A DNA stretch of 64,000 nucleotides, from contig AP025685.1 of assembly GCA_022846635.1 (NCBI GenBank), positions 682,001-746,000 on the forward strand, written 5' to 3'. The notes under the pieces are model-generated. The model ran no database searches, was not told where the DNA came from, and worked only from the letters and a program-made list of their open reading frames with translations. Within the stretch, counting starts at the first letter, position 1; each line of letters begins with the position of its first letter. Positions 102-13,538 of the stretch are shown piece by piece. The stretch comes from Salmonella enterica subsp. enterica serovar Choleraesuis. GTDB taxonomy: Bacteria > Pseudomonadota > Gammaproteobacteria > Enterobacterales > Enterobacteriaceae. Both the position numbers and the translations under genes were made by a program.

Positions 102-650
102 ATGCAAAGGTTGCTCACGTTTACGCTAACACCGCTGTTATTTTTAGTTGCCTGGCCGGGCTGCGCCAACACGGAGCTTATCGGCGGGGATATTAAATTT
201 ACCGGTACCGTACAGGCGCTGCCCTGCAGTATTGCGCCGGGGTCAGAAAAAATACCGGTGGATTTCGGCACACTATCGACCAAAAGCCTGTCAGGCGGCG
301 GCAAAAGCTCGCCTAAGGCATTTGCAATTCATCTTCAGGATTGCACTTCGGCGGTGTGGAACTCGGTCACGGTGACATTTAACGGCGATCGGGCGGCCAA
401 TATGAACGAGCGCCTGGCGATTAAACCGGTACCACCGGGAAATGCCAGCGGTATCGGCATCGGCCTCCAGGAATCAGATGGCACGGAGATAAAACTGGGT
501 GAGCCCACCAGGGCGGTTTCAATTAGCAATGCAAATCTGCAATTGGATTTTGCTGCATTTATTGAAGCCGATCCGGATGCGGTGAAAAACGGCACTTTAA
601 GCCCCGGCGCTTTTGTTGCCACCGCAAACTACACCCTGAATTACCAATAG
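102..650 (+). CDS. Type-1-like fimbrial subunit
   Basis: A 182-residue secreted protein. An N-terminal signal peptide (residues 1 to about 22, hydrophobic TFTLTPLLFLVAW, cleavage probably near CAN-TE) is followed by a pilin fold. The features visible are GGDIKFTGTVQALPCSI near the mature N-terminus, a second cysteine in HLQDCTS that would form the conserved pilin disulfide, and the terminal ANYTLNYQ strand. The length is typical of minor or major pilins of the chaperone-usher pathway, which are folded by a periplasmic chaperone and polymerised at the outer-membrane usher. The ATG at 102 follows a GGAG site that overlaps the stop of the preceding pilin gene. It is probably the last structural gene of the fimbrial operon, since a regulator gene comes next. 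Its exact role (shaft, adaptor or tip) is not clear. Confidence 0.82.
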   Translation: MQRLLTFTLTPLLFLVAWPGCANTELIGGDIKFTGTVQALPCSIAPGSEKIPVDFGTLSTKSLSGGGKSSPKAFAIHLQDCTSAVWNSVTVTFNGDRAANMNERLAIKPVPPGNASGIGIGLQESDGTEIKLGEPTRAVSISNANLQLDFAAFIEADPDAVKNGTLSPGAFVATANYTLNYQ

Positions 651-672
651 CCGAACAGCAAGGTCAGGAGTT

Positions 673-1341
673 ATGGATAATCAATATTTTATTTACGACA
701 AGGACTCATTTTTTGGCCGTGGCATGAAAACGTTAATCCTCGATTACCTGGTAAAAGAGGAATTATCCTGCTGCTGTTATAACGACTTTGGCACGCTGAT
801 GAGCTCTATTAACTCACCGGAGTATAACGGCAAAAAACGCAGCTTACTTTTTGATATTAACAGCCTGCCGGCCGATCGCTTTGCTGCCATTAGCCAAATC
901 CGCCAGATAAGTATGTGCGGTGATTTACGCGTGGTGGTGTTATTGCGGCCCAGCAACATACCGCTGTTCTTTGCCTTGTATTCATTGATTCCGGCGGCGA
1001 GCTGGTTATTAAAAACCGAGTCACTCTGTTACGTCACGCCTTTTCTCCATGAGTTAAGCACTCATACGGAAAAGAGAAACGCTTTTAGCCATTCTCTGGT
1101 GAGTTATACCCGCTCATGCTGGCTGTCTGGCGATGTGCATAAAATTATCTCCAGCTATGACTGGTGGCTGATGGAAGAGATATTTAAAGGAAAATCACTG
1201 ACCAAAATCGCCTACGAAGTTAAAAGCGATGTTCAGCGCCTGAGTTATCACAAACGGCGGTTAATGAAAAAGCTTAATGCGCGTAATAACGCCGATCTGG
1301 TGCAAATATTTAGCGGGCTGGTGGCCTCGGTACCCCATTAG
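673..1341 (+). CDS. LuxR-type HTH transcriptional regulator
   Basis: A 222-residue protein. The N-terminal two thirds look like a degenerate response-regulator-type domain (LLFDINSLP, then VVVLLRP). The C-terminal part, about residues 165-215, matches a LuxR/NarL helix-turn-helix: FKGKSLTKIAYEVKSDVQRLSYHKRRLMKKLNARNNADLVQIF, with the usual IA, KL and N positions. No full phospho-acceptor motif can be recognised, so it may not be phosphorylated. The ATG has a good AGGAG site 6 bases upstream. It lies 22 bases after the pilin gene and 95 bases before the peptide precursor gene. It could close the fimbrial operon, as such regulators often do, or control the peptide operon, or both. Cytosolic DNA-binding protein; the target is inferred only from position. 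Confidence 0.72.
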   Translation: MDNQYFIYDKDSFFGRGMKTLILDYLVKEELSCCCYNDFGTLMSSINSPEYNGKKRSLLFDINSLPADRFAAISQIRQISMCGDLRVVVLLRPSNIPLFFALYSLIPAASWLLKTESLCYVTPFLHELSTHTEKRNAFSHSLVSYTRSCWLSGDVHKIISSYDWWLMEEIFKGKSLTKIAYEVKSDVQRLSYHKRRLMKKLNARNNADLVQIFSGLVASVPH

Positions 1342-1394: not shown

Positions 1395-1436
1395 TAACCA
1401 CGTAGTTAATATCAAGGAAATTAAACAGGAGTCATT

Positions 1437-1634
1437 ATGAAAAAGATCAACGCAATTGAAGCAGCAGGCGTTATTGGCGGTCACTGCAAGACTTGCTCCA
1501 GCACCTATGAAGTCGTCTCCATTGGCGGTAAATCTTCTTGCAAACTGGTTACCACCTGTACTGATAAACACGGCACCACCACCACCATGAAAGACGCGCC
1601 GAATAATATGTGTCAGGTACCTAACGCCGCGTAA
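1437..1634 (+). CDS. Double-glycine-leader, cysteine-rich peptide precursor (bacteriocin-like)
   Basis: A 65-residue protein with a 15-residue leader MKKINAIEAAGVIGG ending in the Gly-Gly motif that C39 peptidases cut. The predicted mature peptide has 50 residues, starts HCKTC and has five cysteines (C17, C20, C35, C41, C59), many Thr/Ser and no long hydrophobic segment. The AGGAG site 5 bases upstream fits strong translation. From memory it resembles the small enterobacterial family DUF4762, for which I know no established function; this needs a profile search. The next genes encode a thiol oxidoreductase, an acyltransferase, a C39 ABC exporter and lipid-synthesis proteins, which suggests that the product is cleaved, oxidised, perhaps acylated and exported. 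An antimicrobial role is the simplest guess, but a signalling peptide cannot be excluded. The odd number of cysteines leaves one thiol free for dimerisation or modification. Confidence 0.75.
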   Translation: MKKINAIEAAGVIGGHCKTCSSTYEVVSIGGKSSCKLVTTCTDKHGTTTTMKDAPNNMCQVPNAA

Positions 1635-1654
1635 TTTTCTCAGCGTATTTGTTT

Positions 1655-1678
1655 GGGCATGGAGACGACTCCATGCCC
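1655..1678 (+). terminator. Perfect 10-bp hairpin between precursor and DsbA-like gene
   Basis: GGGCATGGAG, loop ACGA, CTCCATGCCC form a perfect 10-bp stem-loop 21 bases after the precursor stop and 31 bases before the start of the next gene. Only two T residues follow, so termination would be partial at best. Such a hairpin behind a small, highly expressed first gene usually stabilises the short transcript or reduces read-through into the processing genes. That role is inferred. Confidence 0.5.
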
Positions 1679-1708
1679 TTGCCGCGTTATCAAGGAAAGA
1701 GGCAGGTT

Positions 1709-2368
1709 ATGCAATTAAAACGCAGAACTTTTTGGGCGTGGACTTTATTCGTCATTATTATTTCATCGTTAATGACAGTATTAAGTTATCACCTGTTTGT
1801 ATTTAACACCTTCTCGACAAAGGGCGAGTCACAGGCATTTCGTGATATAGGCGCGGCTCAGGCAGCGCAAAGCCCGATTAAAACGCCCAATAGCATTATT
1901 GAAGTGATGTCTTATGGCTGTCACTACTGCGCGATGAACGAGGCCAATATCGCGGCCTTCAGGCAATCGCTGCCCCGGGAAACCTCTTTTAAAGTTATTC
2001 ACGTAGCGGGCTCAGGCGGACTGGCGACATGGGCGCCGATTTTCGCCACTCTTGAAGAGATGGGGCTGGAAAAGCGTCTGCGCGATAACGCCTATTACAC
2101 CATCATTACCCAAAACCAGAACCTCAATGACCCCTTGTTGCTGGATGGCTGGCTGCGCGCGAATAACGTAGATGTTGCGCGTTACCACGAGGTGAGCGCG
2201 AGTGCGGCGGTGCAACAACGCCTTTCGGATATGAAGGCTATCACTCGCTATTACGACATTAATGCGACACCGATGTTTATCATCAACGGGCGCTATGTGG
2301 TGGCACAGGACGCCGATTTCCCTGAGTTCTCCAAAAGAATGCTGGAGCTGCTGGAGAAAAGGGACTGA
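1709..2368 (+). CDS. Membrane-anchored DsbA-like thioredoxin-fold protein
   Basis: A 219-residue protein. One N-terminal membrane segment (about residues 8-32) would place the rest in the periplasm. The active site is Cys71-His-Tyr-Cys74 in SYGCHYCAMNEANI, and the cis-proline loop is in DINATPMFIINGRYVV, as in DsbA. The CxHxC-type dipeptide is that of an oxidant. The start at 1709 is chosen because AGGAAAGAGGCAGG precedes it; the longer frame from a TTG at 1649 would run through the hairpin and has no ribosome-binding site. It lies 74 bases after the peptide gene, so a role in forming disulfides in that five-cysteine peptide, or in keeping its thiols in a reactive state, is the natural inference. 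Global DsbA function is less likely given the membrane anchor and the context. Confidence 0.75.
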   Translation: MQLKRRTFWAWTLFVIIISSLMTVLSYHLFVFNTFSTKGESQAFRDIGAAQAAQSPIKTPNSIIEVMSYGCHYCAMNEANIAAFRQSLPRETSFKVIHVAGSGGLATWAPIFATLEEMGLEKRLRDNAYYTIITQNQNLNDPLLLDGWLRANNVDVARYHEVSASAAVQQRLSDMKAITRYYDINATPMFIINGRYVVAQDADFPEFSKRMLELLEKRD

Positions 2369-2370
2369 AT

Positions 2371-3324
2371 ATGGCGCTGCGTTTCTGGCTGGTTCGGTGG
2401 ATATTTAGCGTAAAAAATGCCGGGTTTCGGTGCCGCCAATGGCACCGGCGGGGCGCGGGATTTGCAATGGCTGCGCTGCGTCAAATACAGCGCCTGGGCG
2501 GAACGCGTCTGCTTTTGGGCGGCGCATGGCTGCTTTCTCGGCTGGGATTTACTGGTGCGCACTATCGCCGACTTAGCGCGGTTGCCAGCGCTAACTACCG
2601 CAGCCTGATACACGATGACCGGCGTATTAATGCTGGCTGGATAGCCCGGCGGCGGCGCATTCTCGAACAGGCGGCCACCTGGGGCCAGGACAAACTAACG
2701 CTGGCGCAAATTGCCGCCTGTAGCCAGCGGCTGGACGATGCTGTCGCCGAACTTGATACCCGGAAAACGCCGGTCATTCTGGCTCCTCTGCATACGGTTT
2801 CCGATGTGATTGCAGCCATGGTAGGGGCGGGGGTGAAACCGGGCCGGGCCAGCGTTGTGGTTTCCGCCAGCGCCGCGCAGTTTGATGAGCAAAGCCGCCA
2901 GCGCGGCGGCGTGGCGCTGGAATATTGCTCCATTAACCAGGACAACCCGCGCCTTGCCACTCAGTTAATGTCGCTGATGGTTGACGTTAAAACCGGGCAG
3001 CAGAATCTGATTATCTTTCCTGATATCACGCCGGACTATACCGAACATGGCACCCGAGGCGGGGCCGATAAATTCCCCTGCCGGTTGTTTGGGCTTCCGG
3101 CTCGTCTGCACAACGGCGTGGTGCGGCTATCTGCGGCGATTGGCGCGCAGATAATCTTCTATCGCCTCCATTATCGCGGCGGTATTGGCATTGATATTTT
3201 GCCGCCGGTAGCCGCAGCGGATGCGGCAGCTCGCCTGCCGGAAATTATCGAAAGCACTCTACGGGATTATCCCGATGACTGGCTTTTGTGGCACAGCCAC
3301 TCCCTCTATTTCATTAACAACTAA
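2371..3324 (+). CDS. LpxL/HtrB-like acyltransferase-family protein, atypical active site
   Basis: A 317-residue protein, basic at the N-terminus, with hydrophobic stretches near residues 40-65 that suggest inner-membrane association. The middle and C-terminus resemble lysophospholipid/lipid A acyltransferases (LPLAT): APLHTVSDVIAAM at the position of the catalytic motif, IIFPDITPDY, and the ending YPDDWLLWHSHSLYF similar to the LpxL end. The spacing in the motif is His-x3-Asp, not the usual His-x4-Asp/Glu, so the chemistry may differ or the fold may have been recruited for binding. Known relatives move a fatty acid from acyl-ACP, and an ACP gene lies in the same operon, so transfer to the peptide is a fair hypothesis. 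It begins 2 bases after the preceding stop, with its GGAG inside the preceding gene. Confidence 0.6.
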   Translation: MALRFWLVRWIFSVKNAGFRCRQWHRRGAGFAMAALRQIQRLGGTRLLLGGAWLLSRLGFTGAHYRRLSAVASANYRSLIHDDRRINAGWIARRRRILEQAATWGQDKLTLAQIAACSQRLDDAVAELDTRKTPVILAPLHTVSDVIAAMVGAGVKPGRASVVVSASAAQFDEQSRQRGGVALEYCSINQDNPRLATQLMSLMVDVKTGQQNLIIFPDITPDYTEHGTRGGADKFPCRLFGLPARLHNGVVRLSAAIGAQIIFYRLHYRGGIGIDILPPVAAADAAARLPEIIESTLRDYPDDWLLWHSHSLYFINN

Positions 3325-3331
3325 CAAAATA

Positions 3332-5452
3332 ATGACGACGATAATTCCCGATATGGTTTTCCAGGAGGAGACCAACGAATGTGGGCTGGCCTGTATTGCC
3401 ATGCTGGCGCAGACCCAGGGGCATCAGGCCTCGCTGGACGTTCTGCGTGAGCGCTATCCCGCCTCTGATCACGGCAGCTCACTCAATGATTTGGCGGATG
3501 TTCTGGGGCAGATGGATATCGCGACCGCACCGGTGCGCTTCGAGCACAGGGAACTGAGCGAGCTGCCGTTTCCGGCGATTATTCATTATGGTGCCAGTCA
3601 CTACGTTCTGCTGGCCTATAGTCAGGGCAATTACGCCTGCGTTATGAATCCGGCCATTGGCCAGCAGTGGCTGCCGCTTTCGGCGTTAAAAGAAGAGATC
3701 AGCGGCTATGCCCTAATCCTGGAAGATGAACAACCGCCACGTGAACCTTTACCGGGGGGAAAAAAACGATTCGCCTCCGGCGCGGCCTCGGTAATGAGCC
3801 TGCGTCAGACGGCGAAAGTCCCAGGTATTTATCGGCTGATGTTGCTCACCTTTTTGGTTTCACTCACACTGTTTCTGATGCCTATTATGGTGAGTAACGC
3901 CATTAATCAGGCCTTCTCCGGTACGGCCGATGGCCCATTTCCATACGGGGCATTTATTGCTGCTTTCGCCGTTGCCACCCTGCTGGCACTGGGCGTTCGC
4001 ATTATCAGTGAGCGCTACATCAAACGCTTTGTGTTGCTCAATGGCGCACAGGGATTCTCCCGGATGCTTAATAACCCGCTGCGTTTTTTTGAAAAGCGCG
4101 CACCTGGGGAGACATTTAGCCGTTTTGTCGCCTGGCAGGGGGGATTGCTACAGAAAATTGAGCTGGATAATGGTCTGCGCAGTGACTGGGTTATCTGTAC
4201 GATTGCGCTTGGCGTGATGTTCTGGATTGCGCCGATTCTGGCGCTCATTTCAGCGCTCGGGGTCACCGTTATGGGGGCCATCAGCATTTGGGCCGTGTTC
4301 CGCGACCGTTTTTATACCTGGGCGTTGCAGCAAAAAAGCGCCGTTCTGAACGATTTCTTTATGGAGACGTTGCAGGGCGCGCTCACCATAAAAAGCGCCG
4401 GGCTGGAGAACCAGCGCAAAGTGCAATTTGCGTGGCTGAGCAGCGAGTTATTTACCTGTTTACAGCGCCAGAAAATTTATCAGCAGGTCAAAGAGGGGCT
4501 GTATCAGCTAACCGGAAGCCTGGAGATGGTGCTGTTTATGGTGGTGGTGCTACCGATGGTGCATCAGCGCCTGATTTCGCTGGGCGATTTCTTTGCCTAT
4601 AGCTTTCTGCGACAGATTTTTAGTTCTTACGTCACGCGCATTTTCTACGCCATTATCCAGAAAACGCAGCTTCAGGTTATCGATTCACGCGCAGAGGCGC
4701 TGTTTAAAACGCCAGCCAGCGCGCCGTTGCCACCATCTCCTACGCTGCGGCCTGCTGCCGGGCATACTCCGCGCCTTACGTTTGCCGGGCTGTGTTATGG
4801 ATATGACCCTAAACAAACCATCCTGCATGATATCTGCCTCGATATTCCCCCCGGAGGCCAGGTCGCGATTGTCGGCGAATCGGGTGCCGGTAAAAGCACG
4901 CTGCTGCGGATAATTGCCGGTTTGCTGACACCAAACCTTGGGGAGTGCCGCGCCGATGGAATCTCGATTGAAGCCCGCCAGCTGGCCCAGGTGGTTTTTC
5001 TGCAAAGCCAGGAAGATATCCTGTTTAACGCCTCGGTGGTGGATAACGTCACCCTATTTGATCCCCACTTTCTGCCAGAACATGGCCCTAAAATTGAGGC
5101 GCTGCTCGAGGAGCTGGCGTTAGGCCCGGCCATACGCTCACTCCCCGGCGGTATCCAGGCTCTGATTCGCGAAAGTCATGCCGGGCTTTCCCTGGGCCAG
5201 CGTCAGCGCCTGCTACTGGCTCGGGCGCTCTACAGTCAGCGCCCGATAATGGTACTGGATGAGCCGACCGCTAATCTGGATGACGACACCGCGCTGAGCG
5301 TTATCAGTGCAATTCAAAGCCACTGCCGACGCCACGGCAAAACGCTGATCGTCGTGACCCATAGCTTTCTTATTTTGCCGCGCTTTGAGACGCGATACCG
5401 GCTGGAAAACGGAAGATTAACTCAGGAAGTGGCCGTGGAGGTAGCGGTATGA
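3332..5452 (+). CDS. C39-peptidase ABC exporter (bacteriocin-type processing transporter)
   Basis: 706 residues. Domains in order are a C39 peptidase (about 1-130), a six-helix membrane domain (about 165-445) and an ABC ATPase (about 480-706). The peptidase has Cys17 in NECGLACIAM and His90 in SHYVLL. The third triad position, 16 residues further, is Asn106 (VMNPAIG) where the family normally has Asp. The ATPase has Walker A GESGAGKST, a degenerate signature LSLGQRQR and Walker B IMVLDEPTANLD. Such proteins cut the leader after Gly-Gly and move the peptide across the inner membrane using ATP, as CvaB does for colicin V. The substrate is very likely the precursor at 1437. The frame is open further upstream, but the ATG at 3332 places Cys17 at the usual distance and follows the previous stop. 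It overlaps the next gene by ATGA. Confidence 0.9.
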   Translation: MTTIIPDMVFQEETNECGLACIAMLAQTQGHQASLDVLRERYPASDHGSSLNDLADVLGQMDIATAPVRFEHRELSELPFPAIIHYGASHYVLLAYSQGNYACVMNPAIGQQWLPLSALKEEISGYALILEDEQPPREPLPGGKKRFASGAASVMSLRQTAKVPGIYRLMLLTFLVSLTLFLMPIMVSNAINQAFSGTADGPFPYGAFIAAFAVATLLALGVRIISERYIKRFVLLNGAQGFSRMLNNPLRFFEKRAPGETFSRFVAWQGGLLQKIELDNGLRSDWVICTIALGVMFWIAPILALISALGVTVMGAISIWAVFRDRFYTWALQQKSAVLNDFFMETLQGALTIKSAGLENQRKVQFAWLSSELFTCLQRQKIYQQVKEGLYQLTGSLEMVLFMVVVLPMVHQRLISLGDFFAYSFLRQIFSSYVTRIFYAIIQKTQLQVIDSRAEALFKTPASAPLPPSPTLRPAAGHTPRLTFAGLCYGYDPKQTILHDICLDIPPGGQVAIVGESGAGKSTLLRIIAGLLTPNLGECRADGISIEARQLAQVVFLQSQEDILFNASVVDNVTLFDPHFLPEHGPKIEALLEELALGPAIRSLPGGIQALIRESHAGLSLGQRQRLLLARALYSQRPIMVLDEPTANLDDDTALSVISAIQSHCRRHGKTLIVVTHSFLILPRFETRYRLENGRLTQEVAVEVAV

Positions 5453-6603
5453 AGCGCCTGCGTCCGCGGTACCTCATCACCGGCGGTGCGCTATTAGCGC
5501 TGGGGCTGGGGGCATTTTTTAGCTATTGGCTACGCGCTGAACCGGCGCTGCCGGTACTAAGCGCAGAAGTGAGCCGGGGAGACATCGAAAAGGTGGTTCT
5601 GGCCTCTGGGATCTTAAAACCCGCGATGCAGGTAAATGTCGGGGCGCAGGTTAACGGGCAGCTGCGCAAACTTTATGTTCGCCAGGGCGATCGCGTCAAA
5701 AAAGGCCAGCTGCTGGCTGAAATCGATCCCACCATTCAGCAGTCGGAGCTGCGAAATGCCACCGCGCAGCTCGCGTCTGCCCGCGCCCAGCGGCTCGCGG
5801 CAGCCGCCACCCTGGTGCAATATCGCCAGGAGCTGGAGCGCCAGCGCTCAATGGCCCGCGATGGCTCCGGCATACGGAGCGAACTGGAGCGCGCTCAGGC
5901 GCAATATGAAGCCCAGCGTCAGCAGGTCTCGGTGAGCGAAGCCCAGATAGTGCAGGCAGAAATGGCGGTGCAAACCGCTGAGGCCAATCTCGGCTATACC
6001 CGGATTATGGCCCCGGATGACGGGGAGGTTTTAGGCATTGTGACCCGGGAAGGGCAAACCATTGTCTCTTCACAGACGGCACCCACCATTTTGATTCTGG
6101 CTAACCTCGAGAGAATGGAGGTACAAACCCGGATCTCCGAAGCGGATATTCAGAAAATACATCCCGGACAGCCGCTCTGGTTTTATGTCATTGCCAACCC
6201 GCAGCAGCGCTATAAAGGCGTGATGGGCTATGTACAGCCCGCCCCCCAGGAGGCGCTGGACGAGAGCCGTTCCGGAATGCCTCAGCCCGGCGGTCAGCAG
6301 GCGAGTGCCGTTTATTACAATGCCACCTTTGAAGTGGCCAACCGCGATCGGCAGTTAAAAACATCGATGACGGCGCAGGTTTTTATCCGCGTAGCGGAGG
6401 CTAAAAATGTGTGGCGTATTCCGGCTGGCGCGCTGGGGCATTCACTGGGCGCTGACCGCTATCAGGTATCGGTACTGGTCAATGGACAGCCGCAGACCCG
6501 TGTCGTCCAGACAGGTCTGGGCGATCGCCACTATGTTGAGGTACGCCACGGGCTGAAAGCCGGTGAGCGCGTGGTACTTCCTTCTGACGGACAGCAGGGG
6601 TGA
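5449..6603 (+). CDS. MacA/HlyD-family periplasmic adaptor protein
   Basis: 384 residues. An N-terminal membrane anchor (about 10-28) is followed by a lipoyl-type half (VNVGAQVNGQLRKLYVRQGDRVKKGQLLAEIDP), an Ala/Gln/Arg-rich alpha-helical hairpin (about 95-175), the second lipoyl half (YTRIMAPDDGEVLGI) and beta-barrel and membrane-proximal domains. The architecture and length fit MacA, which bridges an inner-membrane ABC pump and an outer-membrane channel, more than the longer CvaA/HlyD adaptors of C39 exporters. The ATG lies in the ATGA overlap with the transporter gene and the end overlaps the next gene's start region, so translation is coupled. It is the only adaptor in the cluster and must serve the MacB-like pump, the C39 transporter, or both. 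Confidence 0.88.
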   Translation: MKRLRPRYLITGGALLALGLGAFFSYWLRAEPALPVLSAEVSRGDIEKVVLASGILKPAMQVNVGAQVNGQLRKLYVRQGDRVKKGQLLAEIDPTIQQSELRNATAQLASARAQRLAAAATLVQYRQELERQRSMARDGSGIRSELERAQAQYEAQRQQVSVSEAQIVQAEMAVQTAEANLGYTRIMAPDDGEVLGIVTREGQTIVSSQTAPTILILANLERMEVQTRISEADIQKIHPGQPLWFYVIANPQQRYKGVMGYVQPAPQEALDESRSGMPQPGGQQASAVYYNATFEVANRDRQLKTSMTAQVFIRVAEAKNVWRIPAGALGHSLGADRYQVSVLVNGQPQTRVVQTGLGDRHYVEVRHGLKAGERVVLPSDGQQG

Positions 6604-6608
6604 AGGCC

Positions 6609-8558
6609 ATGAATCATAGCCCATACATTATTGAACTCCAGAACGTACGGCGTACCTTTATGGCCGGTAGCGAGAGTATTACGGTACTGAGCGATGTATC
6701 GCTGGCTATCCGTCCGGGAGAGATGGTGGCGATCGTCGGCGCATCCGGATCGGGGAAATCGACTCTGATGAATATCATCGGCTGTCTGGATCGTCCGAGC
6801 CAGGGGGCCGTTTACATCAATAATAGAGCGGTGCATGAAGCGACGGGCGATCGGCTGGCCGAACTGCGCAGCCAATACCTCGGTTTTATATTCCAGCGTT
6901 ATCACCTTATCCCCTGGCTTACGGCGCGGGAGAACATCGCAATCCCCGCCTTATATACCGCGATGCCGGAATCGCTGCGCCAGCAGCGGATCGGGCTGCT
7001 GGCAGAAAAGCTGGGGATTTCGGAACGGCTAGACCATAAACCTTTCCAGCTCTCCGGCGGTCAGCAGCAGCGGGTCAGTATTGCGCGAGCGCTGATCAAC
7101 GGCGCGCAGGTGATTCTGGCCGATGAGCCAACCGGCGCGCTGGATAGCGCCAGCGGCAAGGCACTCATGGCGGTATTGCATCAACTGCATGGCGATGGTC
7201 ATACGGTGATTATCGTAACGCACGATCCAAATATCGCCCGCCAGTCACAGCGGATCATTGAGATCAGCGATGGGCGGATCGTGGCCGATAACCCGAACCC
7301 AATTGCCAGGTTACCACAGCCTCCCGCGCTGCCCCCGGTGAGGGATAACGGTCGTGCCTCGTTGGGGCGCGCTCTTCGAGAGTCGGTGCGCATGGCCTGG
7401 CGAGCCTTGCGGGGCCATCGGCTGCGCGCCTTTTTATCCATGCTGGGCATTATTATCGGCATCTCTTCGGTGGTGTCGTCCATGGCGGCAGGCGAAGGCG
7501 CGCGGCAGGCCATCATGCAGGAGATAGGCAAGCTGGGCAGTACCACGCTAGAGATCCGGCCAGGATTAGGCTGGAGCTCGAAACGCACCGATATGGAGCG
7601 CGCTCTGTCGCTGGATGATGTGGAGAGCCTGAGCCGCCTGCCGTGGGTGGTGAATGTCTCCCCGGTGGTGAACAGTATGGTGACGGCGGTGCGTCAGGGA
7701 AATGATGCTTCGCTCATGCTGACGGGTGTGGCGCGGGAGTTTTTTGCGCTACAGGGCATCCAGATGGTTGAGGGCGTGAACTTTAGCGCCAGGGATGTAA
7801 CGGACGGCGAGCCGGTTTTGATTCTCGATGAAACCAGCCGCGAGGCGCTGTTTCCCGGTGCAGAGCAGGCAATCGGCCAGCTGGTGCAGCTCTCCGGAGC
7901 TCCGTGGCGAGTGATAGGCGTTGCGCGCAAGCCGGGGCCGAAAGTTGTCGGCGGTTTTATGTCGGCCTGGGTTCCGTTTAGCTCCCTGACGCAACGAATT
8001 TCAGGAGATAAACCGCTGGAATCCATTGCGCTGCGTTTCCAGGAGTCACTGACGCCAGAGCAGGCGGTTCGGGCAACTGAGCGCCATCTGATTCGCGAAC
8101 ATGGGCGCAAAGATTTCTTTACCCAGACCGATGATCAGCTGGCGAACGCGCTGAAAAAAACTTCTGATTCGATGTCTTTGCTGATTACCGCTATCGCGGC
8201 GATTTCTCTGCTGGTTGGCGGCGTGGGGGTGATGAACATCATGCTGGTTTCGGTGACGGAGCGAACCCATGAAATCGGCATCAGGCTATCGGTGGGCGCC
8301 CGACCGGCGGACATTATGAATCAGTTTTTAGTTGAGGCAGTGCTTATCTGCATTCTGGGCGGTCTGGCAGGGGTTATCGGTGCCTGGCTGGCCGGAGCCG
8401 TGTTCAGACTGATAACTGATGAATTCAGCATGGTCTTTACCGTCGGGCCGGTGGTGATGTCCTGCGGTTTTTCCGCCCTCATCGGCCTGACATTTGGTTA
8501 TTTTCCGGCGCGCCGCGCGGCCCGTCTTCATCCGACTCAGGCGTTGGCACGCGAATGA
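6609..8558 (+). CDS. MacB-family ABC transporter (ATPase fused to permease)
   Basis: About 649 residues from the ATG at 6609, which is preceded at good distance by AGGGG; a GTG at 6600 overlapping the previous stop is the alternative. The ATPase comes first, with Walker A GASGSGKST, signature LSGGQQQR and Walker B VILADEPTGALD followed by the H-loop THD. Then comes a linker, one membrane helix (FLSMLGIIIGISSVV), a periplasmic domain of about 200 residues and three C-terminal helices (LLITAIAAISLLVGGVGVMNIM and following). This is the MacB layout. MacB pumps take substrates, including peptides and lipopeptides, from the periplasm and push them through MacA and an outer-membrane channel. Here it would carry the second export step. 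ATGA overlap with the next gene. Confidence 0.9.
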   Translation: MNHSPYIIELQNVRRTFMAGSESITVLSDVSLAIRPGEMVAIVGASGSGKSTLMNIIGCLDRPSQGAVYINNRAVHEATGDRLAELRSQYLGFIFQRYHLIPWLTARENIAIPALYTAMPESLRQQRIGLLAEKLGISERLDHKPFQLSGGQQQRVSIARALINGAQVILADEPTGALDSASGKALMAVLHQLHGDGHTVIIVTHDPNIARQSQRIIEISDGRIVADNPNPIARLPQPPALPPVRDNGRASLGRALRESVRMAWRALRGHRLRAFLSMLGIIIGISSVVSSMAAGEGARQAIMQEIGKLGSTTLEIRPGLGWSSKRTDMERALSLDDVESLSRLPWVVNVSPVVNSMVTAVRQGNDASLMLTGVAREFFALQGIQMVEGVNFSARDVTDGEPVLILDETSREALFPGAEQAIGQLVQLSGAPWRVIGVARKPGPKVVGGFMSAWVPFSSLTQRISGDKPLESIALRFQESLTPEQAVRATERHLIREHGRKDFFTQTDDQLANALKKTSDSMSLLITAIAAISLLVGGVGVMNIMLVSVTERTHEIGIRLSVGARPADIMNQFLVEAVLICILGGLAGVIGAWLAGAVFRLITDEFSMVFTVGPVVMSCGFSALIGLTFGYFPARRAARLHPTQALARE

Positions 8559-9952
8559 AAAAGCAGATATCGATAGCTCTGATTCTATTGCTGAGCGGCT
8601 GTGGCGCTTTTACCCGCAGCGACTATCAACGGCCTCTGTTATCGCAACCGTTACATTGGGCACAAAAAAATGCCCGCGACTCCGCCCCCCGGGTTGCGCC
8701 TGACCGCTGGTGGTCGGCGTTTAACGATCCTCGATTGTCCGGGGTAATCGATCAGGCCCTGACCAGCAATAACTCGCTGGCCGACGCAGCGCTGACACTA
8801 CAACTGGCACGTAACGCTGCGGGGCTGACCAATACCAACCTGACGCCGGATATCGGGCTTTCCGGCGGGGCCAGTAATAGCAAAAACATACGCCACGGCA
8901 CCCCTTCCCAGGAGAGTTACAACGCCTCGTTCACTCTGAGCTATGAGCTGGACTTTTGGGGCAAGCTGGCGCGCGCCCGGGAGCGGGATGCCTGGGCTGC
9001 CACCGCCAGCGAGCAGGATTATCTCGCGCTGCGCCTCACCACTATTGATACCGCTGCCCGCCTGTACTGGCATATAGCATTGTTGCGCCAGCAGATAAGC
9101 AATGTGGCGGCCAGCGCCGAAATTGCCGGGCAGACTCTCGAAGAGATCCGCTCATGGCAACGGGCTGGTAAAGTCGGCATGCTTGATGTGCTTCAGGCCC
9201 GCCAAACGGTACTTAGCCGCCAGAATGAAGTGCGTAGCCTGCGTCAGCAACTTGATGCCGATCGCAACGCGCTGGCGCTGTTACTCAATCGCCCGGCGGG
9301 ACAGGCGCCAGATGAGGCTCAGGCCCTCGATCCCCGCCAACAGATCCCGCTTTCTACAACGACACCATTATCCGTGATCGCCCATCGCCCGGATATTCAG
9401 GCAGCCGAAGCGCGGCTGCGTTCGGCATTAGCCGGTTATGACGTATCGCGCCTGAGCTTCTATCCCTCTCTGACGCTCAACGGCTCGCTCGGCTCCGCCG
9501 GGCAGGCTTTCGACCAGTGGTTTAACCAGCCGGTACGCGATATCAGCGGCGCACTGGTATTGCCGTTTATCCAATGGAATACCACCCGGCTGACCGTCGA
9601 GCGGGCCAGCCTCCAGCTACGTCAGGCGGCAGTGGCATTTCGCGGCGCGGCTTATAAGGCGCTGACCGAAGTCGATGATGCGCTGGAACGGCGGCTTAGT
9701 GCGCATGAGCAGCGGGACAGGCTGCAGGCATCGCTGGACATTAGCCGCGAGCGTCTGAAGCTGACCGCCAGCCGTTATCGTGCGGGAGCCGTGGATTACC
9801 AGACGTTGCTGGATGCGCAGGACAACACCCTGACTCTGGAAAACGCGCTGGCGCAAAGCCAGTTCGATTATCTGTACGCCACTTTGCAGCTCTGGCTGGC
9901 TCAGGGAGCCGGAGATGAACCTACAAGGACAACCGTATATGCAGCACAATAA
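8555..9952 (+). CDS. NodT-family outer-membrane efflux lipoprotein
   Basis: 465 residues. The signal peptide ends in the lipobox LLLSGC, so Cys16 would be lipidated and the protein anchored in the outer membrane. Two OEP repeats follow with the usual helical-hairpin and strand pattern (DRWWSAFNDPRLSGVIDQAL, FTLSYELDFWGKLARARER, later YPSLTLNGSLGS and RYRAGAVDYQTLLDAQ). Trimeric members form the TolC-like exit duct of tripartite pumps. With the MacA- and MacB-like proteins it makes a complete dedicated envelope-spanning exporter. The start overlaps the macB-like stop by ATGA and the end overlaps the ketosynthase gene. Confidence 0.9.
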   Translation: MKKQISIALILLLSGCGAFTRSDYQRPLLSQPLHWAQKNARDSAPRVAPDRWWSAFNDPRLSGVIDQALTSNNSLADAALTLQLARNAAGLTNTNLTPDIGLSGGASNSKNIRHGTPSQESYNASFTLSYELDFWGKLARARERDAWAATASEQDYLALRLTTIDTAARLYWHIALLRQQISNVAASAEIAGQTLEEIRSWQRAGKVGMLDVLQARQTVLSRQNEVRSLRQQLDADRNALALLLNRPAGQAPDEAQALDPRQQIPLSTTTPLSVIAHRPDIQAAEARLRSALAGYDVSRLSFYPSLTLNGSLGSAGQAFDQWFNQPVRDISGALVLPFIQWNTTRLTVERASLQLRQAAVAFRGAAYKALTEVDDALERRLSAHEQRDRLQASLDISRERLKLTASRYRAGAVDYQTLLDAQDNTLTLENALAQSQFDYLYATLQLWLAQGAGDEPTRTTVYAAQ

Positions 9953-11192
9953 TTCGCTAAAACGGGTCGTCGTTACCGGCTACGGTGCGATTACCCCGCT
10001 GGGTGATTCAGCACAAGAGAGCTGGGAATCGATAATGGATTACCGGTTAGGCTATCGCTATATCGACAAGTCGCCTCTCAATATTCATACCCACTTTATG
10101 GGCATTGTTGAGAGCGAGCCGAGCCTTAAAGGCGTACCGGCGGCTATTCGCCGTCGCCTGCCGCGTCATGCGCGTTTGACCCTGGCCGCAGCGCGCCAGG
10201 CGGTAGCCATGGCCTTTGGCAAGGCCGGCCCGTGTGAATGCTACGATCCGCTGCGCTGCGGGGCGATTTTGGGCAGCGGCTGGGCGGGGCTGGATGAAAA
10301 CTACCGCGCGGTGGGGGAGTTTGAACGCACCGGCGTCACTTCGCCATTTAACTGTTTTTTATCGATGCCGAATGTGGCGACCGCCGCCTGCACTCAGTTC
10401 TGGGGGCTACGTGGTTACCAAAATAGTCCTGTGGCTGCCTGTGCAACCGGGACTATCGCGATTGGTGACGCCTTTGAAGTGATTCGCAGCGGGCGGGCCT
10501 CCATGATGCTGGCCGGTGCCGGGGAGTCGCTTAATAGCGATTGCGCGGTGTGGAATATTGACGTGCTTGGGGCGCTAAGCCGGGAGCCGGAAGCGCCTGA
10601 ACTCGCCAGCTGCCCGTTTAGCGCCAGACGCAGCGGTTTTGTGTTGTCGGAAGGGGCCGCGGTGCTTTGCCTGGAGGAGCGAGAGGCGGCGCTGGCACGC
10701 GGTGCGGTGATCCTGGGTGAAATTACGGGCTATGCAAACTTCAGCGATGCGTTTGATTTCACTTCTCCGGCGGAGGATTGCGTCGCTCGGGTGGCGACCA
10801 TTCGCGGGGCGCTGGAACAGGCGGGGTTAACGCCCGATCGCCTGGATTATATCAATGCACACGGCACCTCGACGGTACTTAATGACCTCAATGAAACCGA
10901 ATCCATCAAACAGGCCCTGGGTAAAGAGGCGTGGCGAATCCCGGTCTCCAGCACCAAATCTTATTCCGGGCACTTAATTGCGGCGGCGGGTAGTTTCGAG
11001 GCTATAGTCTGTCTTCAGTCTCTGGCCCATCAAATCATTCCGGCAACCGCTAATCTCAGCGAACCAGATCCGCTGTGCTGCCTTGATTATGTCGCCGAAG
11101 GGCACCGTCCGGCGACACTTTCCCGAACCCTGAACCTCAGCTTTGGCTTCGGCGGAGCGAATGCGGCGCTGGTGCTGGAGAGTCATTCATGA
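9939..11192 (+). CDS. FabF-like beta-ketoacyl-ACP synthase
   Basis: 417 residues from the ATG at 9939, preceded by AAGGA; an ATG at 9915 would add eight residues. The thiolase-fold catalytic triad is intact: Cys168 in VAACATGT, His308 in NAHGTSTVLND and His345 in KSYSGHLIAAAG. The spacings of 140 and 37 are the same as in E. coli FabF (163/303/340). The enzyme should condense an acyl thioester with malonyl-ACP, using the cluster's own acyl carrier protein. No ketoreductase, enoyl reductase or malonyl transferase is encoded next to it, so primary fatty-acid enzymes would have to supply those steps. The gene overlaps its neighbours on both sides. A role in making an unusual acyl group for the peptide, or a separate small lipid, is inferred. 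Confidence 0.88.
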   Translation: MQHNNSLKRVVVTGYGAITPLGDSAQESWESIMDYRLGYRYIDKSPLNIHTHFMGIVESEPSLKGVPAAIRRRLPRHARLTLAAARQAVAMAFGKAGPCECYDPLRCGAILGSGWAGLDENYRAVGEFERTGVTSPFNCFLSMPNVATAACTQFWGLRGYQNSPVAACATGTIAIGDAFEVIRSGRASMMLAGAGESLNSDCAVWNIDVLGALSREPEAPELASCPFSARRSGFVLSEGAAVLCLEEREAALARGAVILGEITGYANFSDAFDFTSPAEDCVARVATIRGALEQAGLTPDRLDYINAHGTSTVLNDLNETESIKQALGKEAWRIPVSSTKSYSGHLIAAAGSFEAIVCLQSLAHQIIPATANLSEPDPLCCLDYVAEGHRPATLSRTLNLSFGFGGANAALVLESHS

Positions 11193-11968
11193 CCTCGGTG
11201 CGCTACACCCTGCAAGACGCTATGGGCTGGGCCAGATTTTCCGGCGACTGGAACCCGGTGCATTTCAGCCTGACCCGCGCCAAAGCCCAGGGCGCGTCGC
11301 GATTGAGCGTACATGGAATGCGTGCATTGCTGGATGTGAAAGGGGCACTGGCGCCGGATTTATCTTCACCCTGGGTGAAATGTACCGTGCGTTTACGTCA
11401 GCCGCTATGGTGCGATACCGAATACAGCCTAAGCGTCCAGCCTGATGGCGCACAGGCATTGGTTGTGACTCAGGCGCAGCAACAAGAGGTGCGGCTCTCA
11501 TGTCGGCTGACAGGACAAAATGCGGCTCCGCAAGGCGGTAGCCATGAAATTAAGCGACCTGCTCAGGAGGAGATGCGGGCGCTGTACCGAGAGTTTATGA
11601 CGCTTATGCCCGGCGCCCGCCAGTGGCACTTTCTGGATGCCATCATGTTTCGTCAGCTGATTTGCGAGCCGGCCTTGATGGCTCAGCCCGCGATCGCCGC
11701 CGTTTTGCCCGCTCCTCTTACCCTCAATGAACTATTTGACCGTTTTCACGTTGTACAAACCCATCAGGAAGTGATTTTCGATGCTCATCTACAGGCACCT
11801 CTGACACGGGATATGGGCATTGATCTGGTGAGTTTACGGTTGCTGCCATCGCTGGTTGTGGAAGCGCCGGGCGGCGGGCTTGTGGTTCAGGTTGGGGTTT
11901 CAGCCGCTATCTCCCATCCTCAGCGGCAAATCACTAATCGGCTGACGTTAAAGATAGAAACGAGATAA
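11189..11968 (+). CDS. MaoC-like hot-dog dehydratase/hydratase
   Basis: 259 residues. The N-terminal 110 residues carry the MaoC hydratase motif FSGDWNPVHFS with Asp20 and His25, followed by SRLSVHGMRALL. In the family these residues catalyse (R)-3-hydroxyacyl dehydration or enoyl hydration on CoA or ACP thioesters. The C-terminal half (about residues 125-259) is not clearly recognisable and may be a second, degenerate hot-dog domain. ATGA-type overlap with the ketosynthase gene and an ACP gene 22 bases downstream suggest that it works on the ACP-bound product of the ketosynthase. A thioesterase-like role cannot be excluded because the folds are related. Confidence 0.72.
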   Translation: MTSVRYTLQDAMGWARFSGDWNPVHFSLTRAKAQGASRLSVHGMRALLDVKGALAPDLSSPWVKCTVRLRQPLWCDTEYSLSVQPDGAQALVVTQAQQQEVRLSCRLTGQNAAPQGGSHEIKRPAQEEMRALYREFMTLMPGARQWHFLDAIMFRQLICEPALMAQPAIAAVLPAPLTLNELFDRFHVVQTHQEVIFDAHLQAPLTRDMGIDLVSLRLLPSLVVEAPGGGLVVQVGVSAAISHPQRQITNRLTLKIETR

Positions 11969-11990
11969 TTAAAATTTAAGGAGAATCAGC

Positions 11991-12245
11991 ATGCAGTATG
12001 AAGAAGTTTATGCGCGGATAGCCAACATGATTGCCGACGCGAAAGACCTTGAGCTTAATGAGATAAATCCCCAGCGCCCCCTGGCGGCATTGGAGCTGGA
12101 CAGCCTGGATTACGTAGAGCTGATGGTACTGGCCAAACGCGAGTTTAATATCTCACTGGAGGCGGAGTTATTTATCAGGCATCCGCATATGACGCTTGAG
12201 GAGCTGTGTAAACACATTGTGGATACCCGAACGACACAGGCCTGA
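11991..12245 (+). CDS. Acyl carrier protein
   Basis: 84 residues, acidic and helical. The phosphopantetheine attachment site is Ser38 in LELDSLDYVELMV, matching the DSL motif of acyl carrier proteins. AAGGAG lies 8 bases before the ATG. It differs clearly from housekeeping AcpP (for example it begins MQYEEVYARIANMIA), as expected of a pathway-specific carrier. It is the last gene of the operon that starts with the peptide precursor. A holo-ACP synthase is not present nearby, so the host enzyme must modify it. It presumably carries the chain built by the ketosynthase and MaoC-like protein to the LpxL-like acyltransferase. Confidence 0.9.
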   Translation: MQYEEVYARIANMIADAKDLELNEINPQRPLAALELDSLDYVELMVLAKREFNISLEAELFIRHPHMTLEELCKHIVDTRTTQA

Positions 12246-12304
12246 GCCGTGCGTTAACTTCGGTAGCACACCCGCGATGACGCTATTTTAAAGGATGTGC
12301 TTGT

Positions 12305-12790
12305 TTATTGCTGGCTATCCCGGCAGCCATATAGGGGCATATCGTCATTCCCGATGCTTAAAAAATGGGGGCCTGGCTGAACGATAGTCAGGTAACCCCC
12401 TGGGCTGCTAACTCCGGGCGTGATACTGGCGGCAATGGTGGGAGGCAGATTATCTTCCGGGGAGGCGTTTATCTTCTTGCTGCGTATCTGATAGCTATCT
12501 GGCCCGGCGTCCGCAGGCGTTAGCTCTAGCATGATGTCGCGCAGGATCATATATCGCGCTTTATCCTGCTGCGCCATGCCATCAAAAGTGAGGTGAAGGC
12601 GGTTGCCGCTAAAAGCGATCGCCAGGGTTCCTTCTGCCATAAGACGGGTGTTATCAACTTGCTGGGTCACTGAAAACTGAGTGCGACACATAAAAACCGG
12701 AGCGGAACGGTACGAGGCCACAAAAGTGGCTCCTATGACGCCGAACAGTAGAGCGAAAGCACACAGCAAGAGAGCGATTCTATTGGGCAT
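12305..12790 (-). CDS. FidL-like membrane protein
   Basis: 161 residues from the ATG at 12790, which overlaps the end of the upstream regulator gene by 11 bases. One N-terminal membrane segment (about 4-27, IALLLCAFALLFGVIGATFV) is followed by a periplasmic domain with two cysteines (FMCRTQFSV and PLYGCRDSQQ). The layout, size and pairing with a ToxR/CadC-type regulator match FidL of the Salmonella MarT-FidL pair and similar gene pairs in other enterobacteria. The function of FidL is not established; a role in stabilising or sensing with the partner regulator, as ToxS does for ToxR, is plausible. It is convergent with the acyl carrier protein gene, so it probably does not belong to that operon. 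Confidence 0.6.
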   Translation of the reverse strand: MPNRIALLLCAFALLFGVIGATFVASYRSAPVFMCRTQFSVTQQVDNTRLMAEGTLAIAFSGNRLHLTFDGMAQQDKARYMILRDIMLELTPADAGPDSYQIRSKKINASPEDNLPPTIAASITPGVSSPGGYLTIVQPGPHFLSIGNDDMPLYGCRDSQQ

Positions 12791-13538
12791 AGGTTTTTTT
12801 TCTAGCGTAGTAACTCGAGCACTGCCCGGTTTTAATATTGCATTCAATTAAAGAGTAACTGGCGTTAGTTCCCAGCGAACCGTGAATTTTCCTCTGATGT
12901 ATATATATTCTTTTCAGGACGGAACAATCTAACGCTTTGGCATGAAAGGGGGTGTCATTGAACGGCATCAGGGCTTCTTCTAGATTCAGCCCAGTGGGCA
13001 GATAAATAGTACATTGGTTGTGAGTTAGGGCAGTGCTATGGGCGATCGGATGCTTAGCCAGTACATCACCAGGAATAATCCTTAGTATAAACAGCAAGCC
13101 TGAAAGCCCAATGACAAACATGCTTAGGAAAAGTAGTTTGCGCATTTTTTGTTTTTTTCTGAGACCGGTATTTTGTGGTGGAGCCGGTTTTTCAACGTCC
13201 AATAACGTCTGGCAGGAAATATTGACATCCTCGGAAATTTTAAAACCCACCCTGGGGATGGTAATAATGACCTCTTTTTCAATGCCGAGATCGAGAAGTG
13301 ATTTTCTTAGCGTGGAGATATATTGATTGAGGTTGCTGTTAGTGGCTTTAGCGCCATGGTTTTCGAATACCCTAAGAAATAATTCATTGCGGGTAATAAT
13401 CGTTTCCCGGTGTTGTAACAGTTCGGTAAGCAGGCGGCAGGCGGTAAGTGAAAGCTCTACACAATCGTCAGTTATAAGATTGACCAGTTGTGCGGAATTT
13501 GGCTCAAATGAAATGGCATCCTCAATGCTAAACATCAT
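12780..13538 (-). CDS. ToxR/CadC-type membrane-bound transcriptional regulator
   Basis: 252 residues. The N-terminal winged-helix DNA-binding domain (about 1-105) has the OmpR/CadC pattern: LSLTACRLLTELLQHRETIITRNELFLRVF, then SNLNQYISTLRKSLLDLG and TIPRVGFKIS. A basic stretch (KKQKMRK) and one membrane helix (about 132-152, LLFLSMFVIGLSGLLFIL) follow, then about 100 periplasmic residues with cysteines. Such proteins sense envelope or external conditions and act on promoters while in the membrane. GGAGG lies just before the ATG. It is co-transcribed with the FidL-like gene and divergent from a PapI-like gene. Its target could be the fimbrial, peptide or adhesin loci in this window; the sequence does not say which. 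Confidence 0.78.
   Translation of the reverse strand: MMFSIEDAISFEPNSAQLVNLITDDCVELSLTACRLLTELLQHRETIITRNELFLRVFENHGAKATNSNLNQYISTLRKSLLDLGIEKEVIITIPRVGFKISEDVNISCQTLLDVEKPAPPQNTGLRKKQKMRKLLFLSMFVIGLSGLLFILRIIPGDVLAKHPIAHSTALTHNQCTIYLPTGLNLEEALMPFNDTPFHAKALDCSVLKRIYIHQRKIHGSLGTNASYSLIECNIKTGQCSSYYARKKTYAQ

Follow-up and report, generated by a model that had tools for sequence, protein, structure and literature searches.

MacB-type ABC transporters are described as lacking a route through the inner membrane and as taking up their substrates in the periplasm; STII follows a route through Sec and Dsb and then MacAB-TolC, and a SyrD-type ABC transporter together with MacAB has been proposed for Pseudomonas phytotoxins (PMC5985334). 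For class II microcins, the C39 exporter is reported to operate in one step and to need a CvaA-type adaptor (PMC10233263). The window analysed here, a stretch of 64,000 nucleotides from Salmonella enterica serovar Choleraesuis, contains both a C39 exporter and a MacAB pump in one operon at positions 1437-12245. An earlier note had described positions 3332-9952, coordinates that cut across this operon, as four export genes with a single MacA-like adaptor and a single channel; these genes are present as placed, and the single adaptor is also found in related loci. That note left out half of the operon, namely an acyltransferase, a ketoacyl synthase (KAS), a dehydratase and an acyl carrier protein (ACP). 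Taken as a whole, the operon appears to produce one ribosomal peptide that is exported in two membrane steps and is acylated and disulfide-bonded en route, a reading that we consider reasonably probable.

The ten genes, all on the forward strand, are arranged in the order precursor peptide, DsbA-like protein, LpxL-like acyltransferase, C39 exporter, MacA, MacB, channel, KAS, MaoC-like dehydratase and ACP, with four-base overlaps at the C39/MacA, MacA/MacB and MacB/channel junctions. Gene order is kept in all 36 related loci (of which L103 repeats L051 and L104 repeats L040), ruling out a chance grouping of unrelated genes; DsbA is absent in two of them, L057 and L061. Two diverged loci (L064+L180 and L065+L181) are rearranged, with the order peptide, MacA, MacB, channel, KAS, MaoC, ACP, short-chain dehydrogenase/reductase (SDR), LpxL, C39: MacA, MacB and the channel have moved together, the acyltransferase and C39 form a second mobile block, and peptide, exporters and lipid genes remain together. 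Every gene of the operon is assigned and no immunity gene is recognised inside it; immunity could be located elsewhere.

The precursor peptide (1437-1634, 65 aa) belongs to DUF4762 (PF15959, E=1.4e-30) and carries the double-glycine leader of microcin-type precursors: 15 residues ending in GG (residues 14-15), followed by a 50-residue core with five Cys and a D-K-H-G turn. E8 and GG are invariant among six aligned DUF4762 peptides. The peptide filter applied to the locus set required K-x-G or DK-x-G, and invariance of this motif is to be judged from searches made without that requirement. The peptide is seen in 35 of the 36 related loci; it falls below the BLAST cut in L055, L057, L061, L062 and L102, and a GG peptide is otherwise seen in all but L061. 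A 79-aa ORF of L056 (3876-4115), upstream and with a single Cys, is not a DUF4762 peptide and was left out of the set. The core is predicted to form a three-strand sheet; the model has no PDB match with E < 0.001, so that no function can be drawn from the fold.

The adjacent gene (1709-2368, from an ATG at 1709; a longer ORF call begins with TTG at 1649) encodes a DsbA-like thiol oxidoreductase (PF01323, E=1e-8) with a CHYC active-site motif and TP ahead of the second motif; a single hydrophobic segment near the N-terminus, identified by hydropathy only, points to a membrane anchor. CxxC is retained in 31 of the 32 orthologue fragments and lacking only in the broken gene of L063, a locus (genome G161) in which several genes are split. 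The number of core Cys appears to track the presence of DsbA, with few DsbA-free loci behind the comparison: it is 4-6 in 36 peptides from DsbA-bearing loci and two in the three peptides of the DsbA-less loci L057, L180 and L181, and two peptides from E. coli plasmids with DsbA-bearing operons have four. In the Chimaeribacter locus, L061, DsbA is lacking and no peptide can be read.

The C39 peptidase-ABC exporter (3332-5452, 706 aa, from an ATG at 3332 within a longer in-frame ORF from 3221) matches PF03412, PF00664 and PF00005 and aligns over its whole length with ComA. Its catalytic positions are C17, H90 and Asn106, the latter in place of the Asp of the Cys-His-Asp triad found in class II microcin exporters; Cys and His are invariant and Asn is present in all 11 aligned rows, as well as in 30 of the 31 C39 proteins fetched from operon loci (that of L057 is unreadable by pattern) and in L064 and L065. 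Asp is kept in 25 of 28 control C39/T1SS proteins, the other three being unreadable by pattern. Papain itself uses Asn, and peptidase activity may therefore be retained despite the replacement. In a tree, which carries a long-branch warning, L216 included, the C39 proteins of the operon (14 of the 31 fetched, plus that of the window) form one clade adjoining the diverged L064 and L065 and apart from all 28 controls; the control loci are high-ranking paralogue matches rather than a random draw, and edge-cut fragments in L068 and L212 were left out of them.

MacA (5449-6603) scores 295.9 bits against the NCBIfam MacA model (model positions 15-363 of 371; equivalog cut-off 342) and MacB (6600-8558), which also has Pfam matches, 685.5 bits against the corresponding MacB model (positions 4-648 of 648; cut-off 966); scores below the equivalog cut-offs indicate homologues and not the housekeeping MacAB. 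Both match the solved E. coli MacA/MacB structure (5nik) almost end to end. MacA is a full adaptor of its type, with residues 4-377 aligned to E. coli MacA 7-362, a span that should take in the hairpin, lipoyl and barrel parts, a C-terminal membrane-proximal region and a short cytoplasmic N-terminus; MacB has the N-terminal ATPase, the periplasmic core and the FtsX-like membrane part. Adjoining macB is the gene for a NodT/TolC-type outer-membrane channel (8555-9952; PF02321; TIGR01845, outer_NodT, 222.2 bits, above cut-off) with the lipoprotein signal LSGC. No second MacB was recognised elsewhere in the genome by MacB_PCD matches, the two further ones being a neighbouring pair taken as LolC/LolE.

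The earlier note had the adaptor and the channel shared by both exporters. With a CvaA-type query, taken from L181, itself one of the 25 control C39 loci, the operon loci L033-L065 and L100-L104 yielded no CvaA/HlyD adaptor, and no CvaA-type fusion protein stands next to C39 there; in all 25 controls a CvaA/HlyD gene adjoins C39. MacA remains beside MacB when C39 shifts to the far end of the rearranged operon, and the three type I HlyD adaptors of the genome that score above cut-off each adjoin their own T1SS ABC gene; other proteins of the adaptor family score below that cut-off. These findings suggest that MacA most likely serves MacB only and that C39 and MacB most likely act in series; C39 would probably work without an adaptor, but may dock on MacA as well. 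The two-step route proposed in the earlier note thus survives as the best reading of the comparative data and the published precedents, while its shared adaptor is not borne out.

The acyltransferase (2371-3324, 317 aa) is assigned from structural matches and its orthologues; the copy in the window has no Pfam match even at E 10. One of six orthologues matches Lip_A_acyltrans (7.5e-5), and NCBI places an orthologue in the LpxL/LpxP family of acyltransferases. The best structural matches of the predicted model (pLDDT 61) are PatA and LpxM, with Z 9.6-10.3 over 206-220 residues, the next row being at 4.9; with this pLDDT and Foldseek TM-scores of 0.31-0.46, evidence for an LPLAT fold is only moderate. 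A sequence comparison with the PDB gave one match, at E 0.88, judged to be due to chance. The canonical motif of LpxL/LPLAT-like acyltransferases is H-x4-D/E; here an H-x3-D form is found, which reads PxHxVSD in 32 orthologues and HxISD in the remaining four of the 36. None of the ten proteins encoded by the operon matched C-N hydrolase (PF00795), the family of Lnt-like acyltransferases, at E 0.001.

Downstream of the channel lie a FabF-like beta-ketoacyl-ACP synthase recognised by family matches (9915-11192), a MaoC-like dehydratase (11189-11968; PF01575, 22.9 bits, below the cut-off of 27) with a GDxNPxH motif, and an ACP (11991-12245, PF00550) with a DSLDY attachment site. These three and the LpxL-like enzyme are found in all 36 related loci; the KAS motif ACATG is present in 35 orthologues, the 36th being an extracted fragment of five residues, GDxNxxH in all 36 dehydratases, and DSLDY in 35 ACPs, being absent in L062. 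An SDR ketoreductase follows ACP in all 43 other loci and is missing in the window. Among 32 SDR matches elsewhere in the genome the best has 36% identity, and none is thus a clear orthologue; the lipid part may here draw on a housekeeping reductase, or it may be in decay.

In the family, DUF4762 peptides occur in 28 of 295 genomes, all 28 with a C39 orthologue, and 264 have neither; of the 154 genera sampled in this one family, 20 have the C39 clade of the operon. A contig scan gave five true orthologues among the 80 loci listed, the other 75 being left out, and the spread among named genomes that it shows is a lower bound. Beyond the family, the acyltransferase model had no match at E 1e-6 in the 368 other genomes drawn from across the class. 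By megablast, 1400-12300 matched nothing in E. coli genomes and had two short matches in plasmids, and a sensitive ('distant') DNA search with the C39 gene gave no match; a protein search revealed plasmid relatives in 14 records, 12 of them listed at 42-53% identity. E. coli plasmid relatives of the operon occur in nine of 5426 complete genomes, with exporter and lipid genes again together. The literature library searched yielded no paper on DUF4762 or on the operon.

In the proposed pathway, the KAS, the MaoC-like dehydratase and the ACP, recognised by their families, would assemble a dedicated acyl chain on the carrier protein, with the SDR ketoreductase taking part in the 43 other loci and not here. 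At the inner membrane the LpxL-like enzyme would transfer the chain to the peptide, perhaps to the Lys conserved in the D-K-x-G turn, Lys44 in the window, or to the N-terminus. The C39 protein, also recognised by family, would then bind the double-glycine leader, cut it and deliver the peptide only to the periplasm, with no adaptor. The anchored DsbA-like protein, judging from the Cys content, would form disulfides in the periplasm, and MacB would then pick up the mature peptide, probably still lodged in the membrane, on the periplasmic side and pass it through MacA to the channel. The peptide is presumably acylated, as judged from the operon company alone; the fatty-acid half would then explain the presence of a second pump, since an acylated peptide should remain in the inner membrane until lifted by a MacB/Lol-type pump.

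Other readings of the same genes have to be weighed. The operon might have two products, with MacAB and the channel exporting a free lipid or polyene made by KAS, MaoC, ACP and the LpxL-like enzyme, and C39 sending the peptide out otherwise or leaving it in the periplasm. LpxL-like enzymes, KAS, dehydratases and ACPs do also make non-peptide lipids. MacB pumps, in turn, carry glycolipids (PMC5985334); this reading nevertheless seems improbable, since exporters and lipid genes form one set in every related locus, with the peptide in all but one, and likewise in plasmid operons, the rearranged loci hold all three together, and no CvaA-type adaptor is left for C39. A one-step route, in which C39 would recruit MacA and the channel as in CvaAB-TolC while MacB used both for other cargo, would agree with the sole adaptor and sole channel of the operon and with the direct exit, lacking a periplasmic intermediate, described for class II microcins (PMC10233263). 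It is very unlikely: the match of the adaptor to MacA extends almost to the C-terminus, the part reported to dock on MacB (PMC5985334), and the adaptor stays with MacB where C39 moves away. Moreover, its tail before the membrane segment, which starts at residue 1-22 in 36 orthologues versus 14-74 in 27 CvaA-type adaptors, is mostly shorter than theirs, although these are crude hydropathy estimates and the two ranges overlap.

Surface display, in which two-step export would leave the peptide on the cell as a coat resembling a small lipoprotein, in the manner of CexE/Aap, instead of releasing it, is compatible with the favoured pathway and differs from it in the end point. The lack of a recognised immunity gene, odd for a bacteriocin, speaks for it, and the Aat system is reported to pair an acyltransferase with a MacAB-TolC-like pump and to place a glycine-acylated substrate on the surface (PMC7943197); the acyltransferase of the operon is LpxL-like and not Lnt-like, and entry would occur via C39 and not Sec, leaving this end point rather unlikely, if less so than the two-product scheme. 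With a C39 clade that lacks a CvaA-type adaptor and has a MacAB pump beside it in all loci fetched, the operon offers a clean natural system in which to ask whether a C39 exporter can deliver to the periplasm and whether MacB lifts lipidated peptides from the membrane. If the peptide is acylated, it would represent a novel type of lipidated ribosomal peptide, and the operon has relatives on E. coli plasmids.

Several known systems resemble the operon in part. STII of E. coli, as described, is a small Cys-rich peptide that first enters the periplasm, is oxidised there and exits through MacAB with a TolC-type channel, as would the peptide here (PMC5985334). It uses Sec, a signal peptide and the host Dsb, whereas the operon has C39 and a GG leader. 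To our knowledge, the STII system includes no acyltransferase or fatty-acid genes. For PvdRT-OpmQ and the SyrD-type systems, one ABC exporter is proposed for the inner membrane and a MacAB-type pump for the outer step, and pyoverdine matures in the periplasm between the two (PMC5985334); the literature library searched held no paper treating PvdE together with PvdRT. Their cargo, differently from that of the operon, is non-ribosomal. We know of no C39 peptidase and no dedicated fatty-acid elongation genes in these Pseudomonas siderophore and phytotoxin systems. Aat/Cex shares the acyltransferase and the MacAB-TolC-like pump, with acylation preceding exit, as the genes would suggest here; its Lnt-like enzyme is described as acting on an N-terminal Gly, likely with a phospholipid donor, after Sec entry (PMC7943197), whereas the operon has an LpxL-like enzyme, its own ACP module and C39 entry. 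Class II microcins of Enterobacteriaceae share the GG-leader peptide and the C39-ABC exporter, but are reported to need a CvaA-type adaptor and an immunity protein and to have no periplasmic intermediate (PMC10233263); the operon has MacA/MacB instead, Asn for the catalytic Asp, and added lipid genes. Selidamides and nostolysamides are described as ribosomal peptides with a demonstrated acyl group, which is presumed here, and nostolysamides as class II lanthipeptides acylated on Lys. Their acylating enzymes, as far as we know, differ from that of the operon, and no MacAB is known to take part. The operon may tentatively be taken, with somewhat less than even confidence, to define an undescribed class of Enterobacterales ribosomal lipopeptides, combining a DUF4762 peptide, LpxL-like acylation from its own type II fatty-acid module, cleavage and flipping by an adaptor-less C39, periplasmic oxidation, lifting from the inner membrane and expulsion by a dedicated MacAB, and plasmid carriage between E. 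coli strains; its two-step model would follow the precedents of STII, pyoverdine and Aat.

The co-directional operon at window 1437-12245 opens with the gene for a DUF4762 double-glycine (GG) leader peptide of 65 aa, which is followed by an anchored DsbA-like protein; it further encodes a LpxL-like protein of 317 aa, identified in the present analysis, a C39 peptidase-ABC exporter (C39), a MacA adaptor, a second ABC pump (MacB), a NodT-type channel, a FabF-like ketoacyl synthase (KAS), a MaoC-like dehydratase and, as the last gene, ending at 12245, an ACP. These family assignments rest on the matches found, less firmly for the acyltransferase and for the dehydratase, whose window copy scores under the Pfam cut-off. 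The C39, MacA, MacB and channel genes, correctly located in an earlier note, all lie inside the operon; several neighbouring genes overlap by four bases, thus the four export proteins are probably made together.

In a sample of 295 genomes of the family, 30 besides the window's own have a C39 orthologue, with 51-69% identity, and matches below this set drop to 31%; with the window's genome the carriers are 31, spanning 20 of 154 genera by a count of the rows. The loci compared were all 31 from other genomes (one genome having two) and five named ones, from Klebsiella spallanzanii, Enterobacter mori, Serratia oryzae, Pluralibacter gergoviae and Trabulsiella guamensis, two of these five duplicating loci already in the set. 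Gene order and strand are the same in 36/36 for the genes found; DsbA is absent from L057 and L061. DUF4762 occurs in 28 of the 295 genomes, all 28 with the operon; three genomes have the operon but give no DUF4762 match, two of them (loci L055 and L057) with a GG peptide missed by the model, while no readable GG peptide was found at the third locus, L061. In L061 and L227, a Chimaeribacter-type locus without DsbA, a GG leader is followed by just seven residues, and a further short signal-like ORF precedes the acyltransferase.

A ketoreductase (SDR) follows ACP in all 43 other loci searched, including those on plasmids, and is fragmented in L063; it is absent from the window (expected at 12245-12305), and a search of the window's genome found no close copy elsewhere (best 36%). 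The full set is therefore of eleven genes, one of which was lost in the window strain. Upstream of the operon, window 102-1341 codes for a fimbrial subunit and a regulator of the LuxR family, both likewise found ahead of it in 14 of the 31 loci L033-L063 (L033-L046) and in L100, L101 and L104, which suggests shared control. Past the operon, a winged-helix regulator resembling ToxR is encoded together with a small membrane protein (12305-13538, minus strand), as also past it in L038, L045, L100, L101 and L104. Relatives are found on plasmids of E. coli, Salmonella and Chimaeribacter (L225-L229, L231); C39, MacB and channel are fragmented in L228, and transposase pieces lie directly upstream in the E. 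coli ones. Among insertion sequences of the E. coli TUM9812 chromosome, a remnant (L234 9001-11008) holds only truncated KAS, dehydratase, ACP and SDR.

The earlier note had also proposed that both ABC exporters share one adaptor, and this is not supported. The adaptor matches MacA almost to its end, including the region corresponding to the part that, in MacAB-TolC, docks on MacB (PMC5985334). A CvaA/HlyD adaptor, the type of ordinary C39 exporters, adjoins the C39 gene in 25/25 control loci with other C39 exporters of the same bacterial family, one of which supplied the CvaA query; with this query none was found in the operon loci L033-L065 or L100-L104. In the window's genome three type I HlyD adaptors score above the model's threshold, and each of them adjoins a T1SS ABC gene of its own; the CvaA query recovers the same three and a weak match at 1177385 (21.8 bits). 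One such ABC and HlyD pair lies just beyond the window end (G000:C1:746436-749971), after a RTX-like reading frame, and two other T1SS sets are present. No second MacB was recognised among the MacB_PCD matches of this genome, the other two, a neighbouring pair, being presumably LolC/LolE. Two diverged loci, whose C39 proteins are 29-31% identical, show a rearranged order of peptide, MacA, MacB, channel, KAS, MaoC, ACP, SDR, LpxL and C39: MacA stays with MacB, while C39 stays with the acyltransferase. When 15 C39s of the operon, the two diverged ones and 28 controls are placed in one tree, both arrangements group together and every control falls outside, on the opposite side. About 8 kb from one rearranged operon, in the same genome, L181 10212-15999 encodes a CvaA/CvaB/TolC-like set, accompanied by two GA-leader peptides rich in glycine.

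The two-step export proposed in the same note is supported as the best model. C39 is the only candidate within the operon for the inner-membrane step, and a periplasmic oxidoreductase is encoded alongside; MacB offers no path through the inner membrane and picks up its substrates from the periplasm, according to structural work reviewed in PMC5985334, where a SyrD-type ABC exporter is proposed as the inner step for Pseudomonas phytotoxins. We infer each transport and modification step of this route.

The 36 peptides of DsbA-bearing loci have 4-6 core cysteines each, and the three readable ones of DsbA-free loci (L057, L180, L181) have two each. Cysteine content tracks the DsbA-like enzyme in this set, which is a hint, as independent DsbA losses are few. 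On two E. coli plasmids with DsbA-bearing operons a four-cysteine GG peptide is encoded elsewhere on the plasmid; the peptide-model search found none on two Salmonella plasmids and a Chimaeribacter plasmid. Some operon-bearing genomes also encode DUF4762-like GG peptides at distant sites (L182 6447-6608, L183 6348-6497, L184 6551-7354, L185 6445-7322), as tandem pairs in two cases; thus one exporter may serve several peptides.

The earlier note's account of two pumps is confirmed for the export genes; it missed the lipid module. Pfam gives no match for the window's LpxL-like protein, but one of six orthologues matches Lip_A_acyltrans; in a low-confidence structure model only PatA and LpxM stand well above background. 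NCBI names a plasmid orthologue a LpxL/LpxP family acyltransferase, unlike the annotations in L225-L229 and L231, which read 'ABC transporter'. Among 36 orthologues, motifs are conserved in 35 for KAS (the exception being a failed extraction), in 36 for the dehydratase and in 35 for ACP (the exception being L062). The simplest sense of the whole operon would be that a dedicated acyl chain is attached to the peptide. A D-K-x-G stretch is kept in all DUF4762-like peptides compared from beside the operon, and the two peptides from E. coli plasmids have it as well, but its D is not kept in 3/4 unlinked peptide loci; the structure model places it in a turn, which could alone account for D and G, so that its lysine as the putative acylation site is only a guess.

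Two motifs deviate. The catalytic Asp of C39 is replaced by Asn (Asn106, window 3647-3649) across the operon clade, in 30/31 fetched proteins (L057 being unreadable) and in the diverged L064 and L065, while controls have Asp in 25/28 (three unreadable); the acyltransferase motif is H-x3-D in 36/36 orthologues. To our knowledge, neither change is known to abolish activity.

Class II microcins are described as exported without a periplasmic intermediate (PMC10233263), and the operon, in whose loci no CvaA-type adaptor was found, is not a member of that group. The Aat system, which combines an acyltransferase with a MacAB-like pump, is a published parallel (PMC7943197); judged by its acyltransferase the operon does not belong to it and the enzyme is different, although the pairing is alike. 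The operon would work in the manner of Aat and also of STII, which undergoes Dsb oxidation in the periplasm and then exits via MacAB-TolC (PMC5985334).
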